Positions 33,608 through 35,776 of a stretch of 64,000 nucleotides of DNA are shown here, in pieces. The translations under genes and the position numbers were made by a program. The notes beneath the pieces are model-generated. The model saw only the letters and a program-made list of their open reading frames with translations, had not been told where the DNA came from and made no database searches. The stretch covers positions 1 to 64,000 of the forward strand of contig JADLBU010000106.1 of assembly GCA_020847535.1 (NCBI GenBank), given 5' to 3'. The DNA is from Phycisphaerales bacterium. Lineage in GTDB: Bacteria; Planctomycetota; Phycisphaerae; Phycisphaerales; UBA1924. The number at the start of each line of letters is the position of its first letter. The stretch's first letter is position 1.

Positions 33608-34288
33608 TTATGCATCGCTCTCCAGGTCCTCGGCCTTGGCATCCCGGCTGATGCGATACTCCCCGCTGAACCACCTGTGCAGGTCCGCATCCCGCGCCCG
33701 GGCATCGGCGAACGGGTAGCTCGGGTGCGTGGGGGCGATCCACGTGCCGGTGATGCGACAGCGGGCCGGCTCGCGCTCGAGGAACTTGTCCAGCCCGGGC
33801 CGCTCCGTCCATGTATCGGGCAACTCGATCGCAACGCGACGGGAGCTGGGTCCGACCGCATCGATCGCGATCGTCGCACCCGTGGGTGGCCGGGCATCTC
33901 CCAGTTTCTCCGGCCACTCGATGATCGCGGCGACATCCGGGAGCGGTTGGGATCCCGGGCCGAAGTAGCGGTCCCATCCCAGGGCATCCAGCTCATCGGA
34001 ACCCGATAGGCGGTATGCATCGATATGGGCGATCCTGTGGATACCGCGATCGTGCCCCGCGCTGGCGGCGGGCAGGTCGTACTGGTTGATCACGACGAAC
34101 GTCGGGCTTGAGACCATCCTCTCGTTGCCGCCGAGCCCGCGAACGATCGCCCGTGTCAGCGTTGTCTTCCCGGCCCCGAGGCCTCCCACCAGGGCGATCG
34201 CATCCCCGCCGCGCAGCAGCGATGCCAATCCCACACCCAGGGCCTGGGTGTACGCCTCGCAGGAGCTGTCTCGTTCGACCGTGATCAC
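33608..34288 (-). CDS. tsaE: TsaE-type ATPase fused to a degenerate YacG-like zinc-finger tail
   Basis: TsaE is the ATPase that works with TsaB and TsaD to make threonylcarbamoyl-adenosine in tRNA. Residues 35-43 (GGLGAGKTT) are the Walker A loop, followed by S-S-P-T-F and the H-I-D-A-Y-R-L motif; I-I-E-W-P-E-K-L is typical. After residue 165 comes a 50-residue tail that matches YacG, a zinc finger that inhibits gyrase: C-R-I-T-G, P-F-A-D-A-R-A, D-L-H-R-W-F-S-G-E-Y-R-I. YacG has C-P-x-C-G and P-F-C-S-x-R-C; here three of the four cysteines are replaced and only Cys177 is left, so zinc binding is unlikely. The GTG start overlaps the PfkB-gene stop by four bases. Confidence 0.88.
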   Translation of the reverse strand: MITVERDSSCEAYTQALGVGLASLLRGGDAIALVGGLGAGKTTLTRAIVRGLGGNERMVSSPTFVVINQYDLPAASAGHDRGIHRIAHIDAYRLSGSDELDALGWDRYFGPGSQPLPDVAAIIEWPEKLGDARPPTGATIAIDAVGPSSRRVAIELPDTWTERPGLDKFLEREPARCRITGTWIAPTHPSYPFADARARDADLHRWFSGEYRISRDAKAEDLESDA

Positions 34289-35466
34289 GCGTGCGTTTCC
34301 CCCGCTGGCAGCCTACGCAGAAACTCCATCAGCCGCTTCAGCGTCGGGGAGCCGGCATCGCGGACGTATGCCCCGCTCAAGCCGCACGCGATCGCCAGGC
34401 ACTGCTGCAGCGGTAACTTCAGGCATTGTCCCAGCGCAAAGCCCGCGTTGAAGTGGTCCCCTGCGCCGGTAGAGAGCTTGGGGGTCCGGGTGAACGGGCC
34501 ATCAAACCACGCCGAATCTCCGCCTGAGTCCGCGGCCGCTGCGCCCTCGCGCGGGTGAATCACCACGCAGTCGATCCCCAGGGCATCACGGATCTGTACA
34601 GCGCTGTGCTGGATCGCCGCGCCCAGCGTCTGCATGTCCTCTTCCTCGGCGGAGTTCAGGCCCAGCACGCTGGCGATCCGCTCGGACTCGGCCTGGTTGA
34701 GCCCGAGCGTGAGCGGGATCATCGAATCCATGCGCTTGAGCATCCCGAGGGCCCGCTCTACATCACCATCGGTGCGCTTGGCGGGATCGCACAGGTCAAT
34801 GAAGATCCGTTTGCTTCGCGGCTCGCGCAGCTTGGGGAACACCTCCTCGCAGAGCCCGCGCCAGATCTCCTCGACTCCGCCCATCATCACCCAGTTGACC
34901 ATCCCGATCAGCGATGACCTGTCGATGTGGGCGATCAGCGATTCAACACCCACCACCCGCGTGATCGCCTCCCACGTCACACCCTGGATGTTCGCGGGCT
35001 TGCCCAGCATGATCTTGCCATCGTCGAACTCCAGGGCATCGGTGAATGCCGGCGGCGCCACGGGGATCACCAGCTGGCACCGCGCTGCGAACTCCTCGTA
35101 GATCGGGTGCAACTGCCGCGGATCCTGCGGCTGACCAACAGCGCCGATGTATGTCACCTGTGCGCCGACCTGTCCCAGCGCGCCGGCGAGCAGGGGGCCA
35201 TTGCCGCCGAACCGCTCCTCCTGCACGACCAGCTCGATGTTGGTGCTCTTGCCCGCGGCCGTTGCAGCGCGGGCGGCGAACTGACCTATGGTGGCGATCC
35301 TGCTGTAGCCATCCGTGGTCATCGCCCGACGCTGATCCACCACGTGAATGATGGAGTCGATGAAGGCATCGAAACCGACCAGGGCATGCAAGCCCGGGAT
35401 GCGGGGGGCTGCATCGGCGAGACTCTGGGCCGCGGACTGTGCAATCATTGAACGGGAACTGCTCAT
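34285..35466 (-). CDS. PfkB-family carbohydrate/nucleoside kinase
   Basis: The 393-residue protein has the ribokinase fold signatures: F-G-G-N-G-P-L-L-A-G-A-L-G-Q-V-G near residue 90 and the C-terminal T-G-A-G-D-H-F-N-A-G-F-A, whose Asp is the catalytic base. Substrate cannot be told; the N-terminal part (V-G-F-D-A-F-I-D) is unusual for a sugar kinase. The ATG at 35466 is 31 bases from a divergent small gene. Its stop overlaps the start of tsaE, so the two are coupled. Confidence 0.85.
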   Translation of the reverse strand: MSSSRSMIAQSAAQSLADAAPRIPGLHALVGFDAFIDSIIHVVDQRRAMTTDGYSRIATIGQFAARAATAAGKSTNIELVVQEERFGGNGPLLAGALGQVGAQVTYIGAVGQPQDPRQLHPIYEEFAARCQLVIPVAPPAFTDALEFDDGKIMLGKPANIQGVTWEAITRVVGVESLIAHIDRSSLIGMVNWVMMGGVEEIWRGLCEEVFPKLREPRSKRIFIDLCDPAKRTDGDVERALGMLKRMDSMIPLTLGLNQAESERIASVLGLNSAEEEDMQTLGAAIQHSAVQIRDALGIDCVVIHPREGAAAADSGGDSAWFDGPFTRTPKLSTGAGDHFNAGFALGQCLKLPLQQCLAIACGLSGAYVRDAGSPTLKRLMEFLRRLPAGETHA

Positions 35467-35497
35467 GTGACAGGTAATGTAGCGAAGAGGGACGAAT

Positions 35498-35776
35498 GTG
35501 GCGGAGATGACCTGGGCACTCCTGGATGCGGTTGAGCTGGCACACGAGCTCGCGGTCGCCATACGGAGGCGGCGATGGGGGGATTGCATCCTCCCGGGGA
35601 TCATGCTCACGATTCTGCTCGCGGTGGTCGCCTTTCTGGCGTACCTGCTCTGGTCCTTGGGCTGGGTCGGGAAGGTGCTGGCGATCGCGGCTCTGGCGGC
35701 TCTGCTGGCGGTGGTTCTGATCGTTCACTGGATCCGAAGCGCCCTGCGCGGCAAGGAACAGGAGCCACCGCGATGA
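35498..35776 (+). CDS. Small two-helix membrane protein
   Basis: The 92-residue product has two hydrophobic helices (about residues 33-53 and 58-78) joined by a short turn, with basic and acidic ends. No family recognised. It starts at a GTG (35498) close to the divergent pfkB gene and its stop overlaps the rdgB start (ATGA), so translation is probably coupled. A role in the envelope is possible but unsupported. Confidence 0.5.
   Translation: MAEMTWALLDAVELAHELAVAIRRRRWGDCILPGIMLTILLAVVAFLAYLLWSLGWVGKVLAIAALAALLAVVLIVHWIRSALRGKEQEPPR

Follow-up and report, generated by a model that had tools for sequence, protein, structure and literature searches.

A single gene on the minus strand of the window (the whole stretch of 64,000 nucleotides that was analyzed) fused a TsaE ATPase with a YacG-derived domain: tsaE-yacG (33608..34288; ORF list and Pfam), encoding 226 amino acids from a GTG start. 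TsaE is the ATPase of the TsaBDE complex, which makes tRNA t6A, and YacG is a small zinc protein that inhibits DNA gyrase in E. coli. The layout, all on the minus strand, comprised the ATPase domain at approximately residues 1-165 (33794..34288; Pfam, alignment, and AF2 model), a short linker at residues 166-176 (33761..33793), which alignment showed to be very variable in length among relatives, and the zinc-less YacG-derived domain including an acidic C-terminus at residues 177-226 (33611..33760; profiles and model). The stop codon (33608-33610) was directly 3' of this domain, and the interval in which the sequence-only reading had placed the tail corresponded exactly to the domain plus this codon.

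The ATPase portion was a complete TsaE. Pfam matched the family at residues 11-144 of the 226-amino acid protein (E 1.3e-28), and TIGR00150 (TsaE) scored 63.5 bits, above its cut-off of 60.1. The ATPase motifs were intact: Walker A (GGLGAGKTT, 35-43), SPTF (61-64), HIDAYR (88-93), and EW (124-125); Walker A and the conserved EW were invariant in the alignment of relatives. This part of the AF2 model was similar to TsaE of the TsaB2D2E2 complex (6n9a_E, Z 20.9), and TsaD was also encoded in the genome of the window (343 bits against a cut-off of 296). The GTG start overlapped the end of the upstream ketohexokinase/PfkB-type gene (34285-35610, minus strand) by 4 bases (34285-34288), and this suggests translational coupling between the two genes. 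No sigma-70-type promoter or terminator was seen near tsaE-yacG.

The sequence-only reading had claimed that the tail was homologous to YacG with three of the four zinc cysteines replaced, and a profile search gave a significant match. When the whole protein was scored, YacG PF03884 matched at residues 177-223 with 23.9 bits (E 3.3e-5), slightly below the cut-off of 25.5; the tail scanned alone reached 27.5 bits and, in the whole-genome search, 26.7 bits, both above this cut-off. The NCBIfam YacG model PRK01343 also matched the protein (1.1e-7). At the zinc site, C177 (33758..33760, minus strand) was the single survivor, while the second, third, and fourth ligands were replaced by T180, A194, and A198, respectively, and the 53 cysteine-lost members of the family were in this or almost this condition; the C-terminal motif proposed in the same reading was present as D202-L203-x-x-W206 and Y211-R212-I213. 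Chance resemblance was ruled out using a control profile built only from standalone, cysteine-intact YacGs found elsewhere in the phylum: the window tail scored 23.9 bits, against a maximum of 9.5 bits among 10,600 shuffled tails, and all 53 cysteine-lost tails were above every shuffle. As a single sequence, the window tail gave only chance matches among PDB chains (best 0.14), and a profile of 34 cysteine-lost tails was needed; its top matches were the E. coli YacG structures 4TMA and 1LV3 (E 1.3e-4, next match 0.077), with W206 aligned to W40 of E. coli YacG. Profile-profile comparison of cysteine-lost with cysteine-intact fused tails gave a probability of 99.7%. No second YacG was detected in the genome of the window at E<=0.001 by whole-genome profile search, and at E<=1 the sole additional match was 17 residues inside an unrelated long frame.

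The predicted structure agreed with this assignment. The AF2 model of the window protein averaged a pLDDT of 89.7 (82-94 for the ten-residue blocks spanning residues 171-220); a cysteine-intact fusion modeled as a control (L279) contained the same elements with a lower confidence in the tail (~80). In Foldseek, the tail model matched gyrase-bound YacG (4tma_J, probability 0.99), and VIA-align superposed 4tma_I on residues 173-218 of the model (45 of 47 residues, rmsd 3.6) with a Z of 5.8; common arrangements can also reach values in this range, though the match here covered nearly the whole YacG chain. Since AF2 models no zinc and may be drawn to the family fold, the predicted match to gyrase-bound YacG is support and not proof; the Z would be weak if taken by itself, but it is in agreement with the independent sequence evidence. 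The identity of the tail as YacG, together with its conservation (see below), is in our judgment nearly certain.

YacG was searched for in 392 genomes from the phylum, 61 from the window's family, and 121 from the order, and 135 loci were extracted and classified: 75 in the window's family (f1) and 60 in five other families of the order. Throughout the order, yacG was the next gene after tsaE, mostly overlapping or close behind it; elsewhere in the phylum, none of 35 loci had TsaE within ~1.5 kb of yacG (a shorter span where a contig ended). Matches to YacG in the phylum families f61 and f37 were weak and partial only, and were discarded. Three states occurred in the order: separate genes with four cysteines, fusions with four cysteines, and fusions with cysteines lost. 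Of the 75 loci of the window's family, 53 were fused with cysteines lost, 14 separate and intact, and 5 fused and intact, 1 was an intact copy at the edge of a contig, and 2 had no tail, whereas all 60 loci of the five other families were intact (33 fused and 27 separate). Separate copies of yacG had four cysteines in 41 of 41 cases; two of them (G465 and G469) at first appeared to lack the first cysteine, which was merely shifted by two residues. Cysteine loss was thus seen only in fused copies and only in the window's family. A sequencing error or mis-assembly was ruled out by the presence of this state in 53 genomes; cysteine-lost tails were retained across more than 40 genera, and the named carrier records were Phycisphaerales, Phycisphaeraceae, Phycisphaerae, and unplaced Planctomycetota metagenome genomes. 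The tail is therefore a recurrent feature of other planctomycete TsaE proteins, a point that the sequence-only reading had left to such a comparison.

Several loci showed how the states may be connected. In three genomes (G402, G481, and G465), tsaE and yacG were separate with their frames parted by a single stop codon, which offers a simple route to fusion. One tail (G395) had an intermediate pattern, C-S-A-C, at the zinc positions. Truncated tails lacked the first part (G442) or the end (G522 and G414), the copy in G522 being one more cysteine-lost tail. In G399, a genome of the cysteine-lost clade, the TsaE frame broke before the tail through a frameshift or stop (L122 and L269), and no recognizable YacG domain followed downstream of the break. 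Some genomes of the order possessed TsaE and no YacG, suggesting that the function of the latter is dispensable, which counts against the reading favored below. Separately, TsaE proteins of several alphaproteobacteria (L293, L294, L296, L305, L306, L325, L329, L330, L337, L343, and L346) carried a C-terminal domain of ~350 amino acids, kinase-like by eye, and C-terminal fusion therefore appears to be tolerated by TsaE beyond planctomycetes.

The history of cysteine loss could not be resolved from the TsaE tree, which was too short on its own, and a GyrB tree of 81 genomes was used. All 44 sampled cysteine-lost genomes fell within one clade of 50 genomes (SH-aLRT 100), in which three cysteine-intact genomes (G421, G325, and G409) were nested. 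The minimum numbers of changes on this tree were three for the cysteines and six for the fusion, and a constraint keeping the cysteine-lost set together was rejected (p-AU 0.0008). The nested genomes and this rejection ruled out a single loss in a clean clade, and indicate either parallel losses or one loss followed by restoration or replacement. The GyrB protein at L179 (genome G000, contig C4) was ~890 amino acids long against a model of 639 positions; the excess was apparently mostly in the C-terminal half and was common to relatives.

The cysteine-lost tails had the consensus CPxTG..V.PDSPTxPFADERARxADLxRW. The first cysteine (C177 in the window) was invariant in 52 of the 52 tails having the position, an invariance for which the reading favored below does not account; the second zinc position was T or S, and the fourth was A in 89%. 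The tryptophan equivalent to W40 of E. coli (W206; 33671..33673, minus strand) was held in 53 of 53 cysteine-lost tails and was invariant in all copies examined, and F17, D26, and W30 (domain numbering) were invariant in 133 sequences. The C-terminus remained acidic, with a median net charge of -3 in cysteine-lost tails versus -3.5 and -4 in the intact sets. Mean entropy over the non-cysteine columns was 1.38 bits in cysteine-lost tails versus 1.79 in fused intact and 1.66 in separate intact copies, a difference not to be over-read since the cysteine-lost set is taxonomically narrower than both intact sets. Among within-genus pairs, which share lineages and hence are non-independent, the tail had a smaller pN than the ATPase in every one of the 21, and a smaller dN/dS in 15 of 20; the pair formed by the window and its genus mate gave dN/dS values of 0.146 (tail) and 0.279 (ATPase). 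These substitution patterns indicate strong purifying selection on the tail and no decay, and the tail probably still has a job, being strongly conserved despite the loss of the zinc cysteines. The term "pseudo-YacG" used in the sequence-only reading, in the sense of a dead remnant, does not fit such selection, nor the retention of the gyrase-contacting tryptophan and the acidic C-terminus. A pseudo-domain drifting after a read-through fusion would account for the absence of three of four zinc ligands and for the few copies truncated at the start (G442) or end (G522 and G414); nevertheless, the entropy and dN/dS values largely refute it, the invariant W, F, and D and the retention in more than 40 genera also oppose it, and we regard it as very improbable.

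The reading that we favor, by a modest measure of confidence, is that the tail descends from YacG, no longer depends on metal, is tethered to TsaE, and probably still binds GyrB; on retained gyrase binding taken by itself, our judgment is evenly balanced. The phenylalanine at the F513 position of GyrB, located via the DADVDG motif of the E. coli sequence, was kept in 81 of 81 genomes. According to a review (PMC10886550), E. coli YacG touches the core of GyrB through its zinc finger, where insertion of a tryptophan is critical; its C-terminal region reaches across GyrB and GyrA and prevents DNA from binding. A second paper (PMC5507300) names YacG residue 40 and F513 of GyrB; it writes F40, while by alignment residue 40 of the 4TMA chain is W. 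The proposal of GyrB binding is made because the tryptophan, the acidic C-terminus, and F513 of GyrB are all kept. On the other hand, in E. coli it is the zinc finger itself that touches the core of GyrB (PMC10886550), and loss of the zinc site could therefore alter or abolish binding; W206 may also be conserved for packing in the fold and not for gyrase binding.

Under this metal-independent reading, overlapping tsaE and yacG genes would have been fused in several lineages by loss of the stop codon or a change of frame. In the window's family, the fused domain would then have lost its structural zinc site, usually by C2>T/S, C3>A or other, and C4>A, the rest of the fold being held by new conserved residues (V8, P13, P16, D/S19, and E20 in domain numbering) and also by tethering to TsaE. 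W206 would insert into the TOPRIM pocket of GyrB and the acidic C-terminus would be laid toward the DNA gate of GyrA, so that a YacG independent of zinc and attached to the TsaE ATPase would restrain gyrase, with TsaE itself presumably retaining its t6A role. A further, unlikely elaboration is that, in this clade, the nucleotide state of TsaE, an essential ATPase, or its engagement in TsaBDE sets the amount of YacG domain available for restraining gyrase, with C177 as a possible redox switch replacing the zinc site.

Cysteine loss was confined to fused copies (0 of 41 separate ones), and the lost tails have a conservation code of their own, CPxTG and DSPT-PFADERA, that is absent from intact copies. 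Both observations would also fit a repurposed domain that lost zinc after fusion, abandoned its gyrase role, and is now part of the t6A machinery, for example in a TsaE-TsaD or TsaB contact or as a cap regulating the ATPase; yacG and tsaE are neighbors throughout the order, possibly a sign of a long-standing functional connection. Given that the loss of zinc comes after fusion and that the code is distinct, we keep repurposing as the main rival, a tentative possibility short of probable. Four cysteines are present in all 33 fusions found outside the family and in 5 of those within it, so that fusion alone is not enough to release the zinc site. Furthermore, the residues kept (W, DL, F, and the acidic end) are those common to gyrase-binding YacG, and a linker of very variable length, down to zero, is easier to reconcile with a tether than with a fixed interface.

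Two other explanations were considered. In a zinc-limited lineage, zinc sites of several proteins might have been replaced while the function of YacG stayed ordinary, and evidence of this kind came from ribosomal protein L36, which had lost zinc ligands (e.g., RRSKDCQ...VINKKNPRFKQRQG) in five cysteine-lost genomes (L357, L365, L369, L374, and L405 in G002, G384, G408, G446, and G422), whereas no cysteine-intact genome among those examined showed such a loss. Four of these five belonged to one GyrB sub-clade of nine genomes, in which G439, G427, G412, and G442 keep a normal L36. However, L36 was fully liganded in most cysteine-lost genomes, so that cysteine loss in YacG appears to be older than, or independent of, general zinc sparing; the L36 of the window's own genome keeps all ligands, and zinc sparing was rejected as the main cause and is improbable. 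The link between two processes, tRNA modification and DNA topology, that the sequence-only reading drew from the fusion is only a possibility, and the fusion may simply be the outcome of the old overlap between tsaE and yacG. A neutral fusion of this kind, combined with a role of YacG in the phylum other than gyrase inhibition, could draw on the finding that deletion of yacG in E. coli left the potency of the tested gyrase inhibitors unchanged (PMC5507300), and our literature search found no test of the role of YacG in planctomycetes. We consider this combination highly doubtful given that the pocket residue of GyrB and the W40 equivalent of YacG are kept, though both are possibly conserved for other reasons.

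No description of a TsaE-YacG fusion or of a zinc-free YacG was found in the literature search, although such absence is not proof; YacG and YjeE together, or a TsaE fusion in planctomycetes, were likewise without mention, and TsaE and YacG were co-mentioned only in an unrelated Vibrio comparison. Treble-clef/TRASH domains that lost zinc (NosL/MerB-like, YlxR-like, and U-box) have been reviewed (PMC4999995), and a text search of that review brought up no YacG among them; the loss of ligands with the fold kept by other means is common to those domains and the present tail. The latter would be a clear case of a zinc knuckle turned into a metal-free fold under selection. The order provides a natural series of one gyrase-inhibitor domain (separate with zinc, fused with zinc, and fused without zinc), which opens directly to experiment the questions of what in YacG binds gyrase, of whether this requires zinc, and of whether planctomycete gyrase is restrained via a protein tied to translation fidelity.

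In comparison with known TsaE (PF02367; YjeE, HI0065, and YdiB), the window protein shares a complete ATPase with all motifs and a TsaD in the genome, and differs by the additional C-terminal YacG-derived domain. With known YacG (PF03884; E. coli YacG, 1LV3, and 4TMA), the tail shares the sequence profile, predicted fold, F27, D36-L37, W40, acidic C-terminus, and occurrence as a single YacG-like sequence in the genome. On the other hand, YacG is a small stand-alone protein with four ligands (C-x2-C ... C-x3-C), whereas the domain in the window is the C-terminal part of a 226-amino acid TsaE, keeps one of the four, and has gained conserved residues in the stretch from the knuckle to the helix. 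The cysteine-intact TsaE-YacG fusions in other families of the order (e.g., G185, G220, G303, and G380) have the same domain order and linker position, and differ from the window protein in their four cysteines and strong YacG scores.
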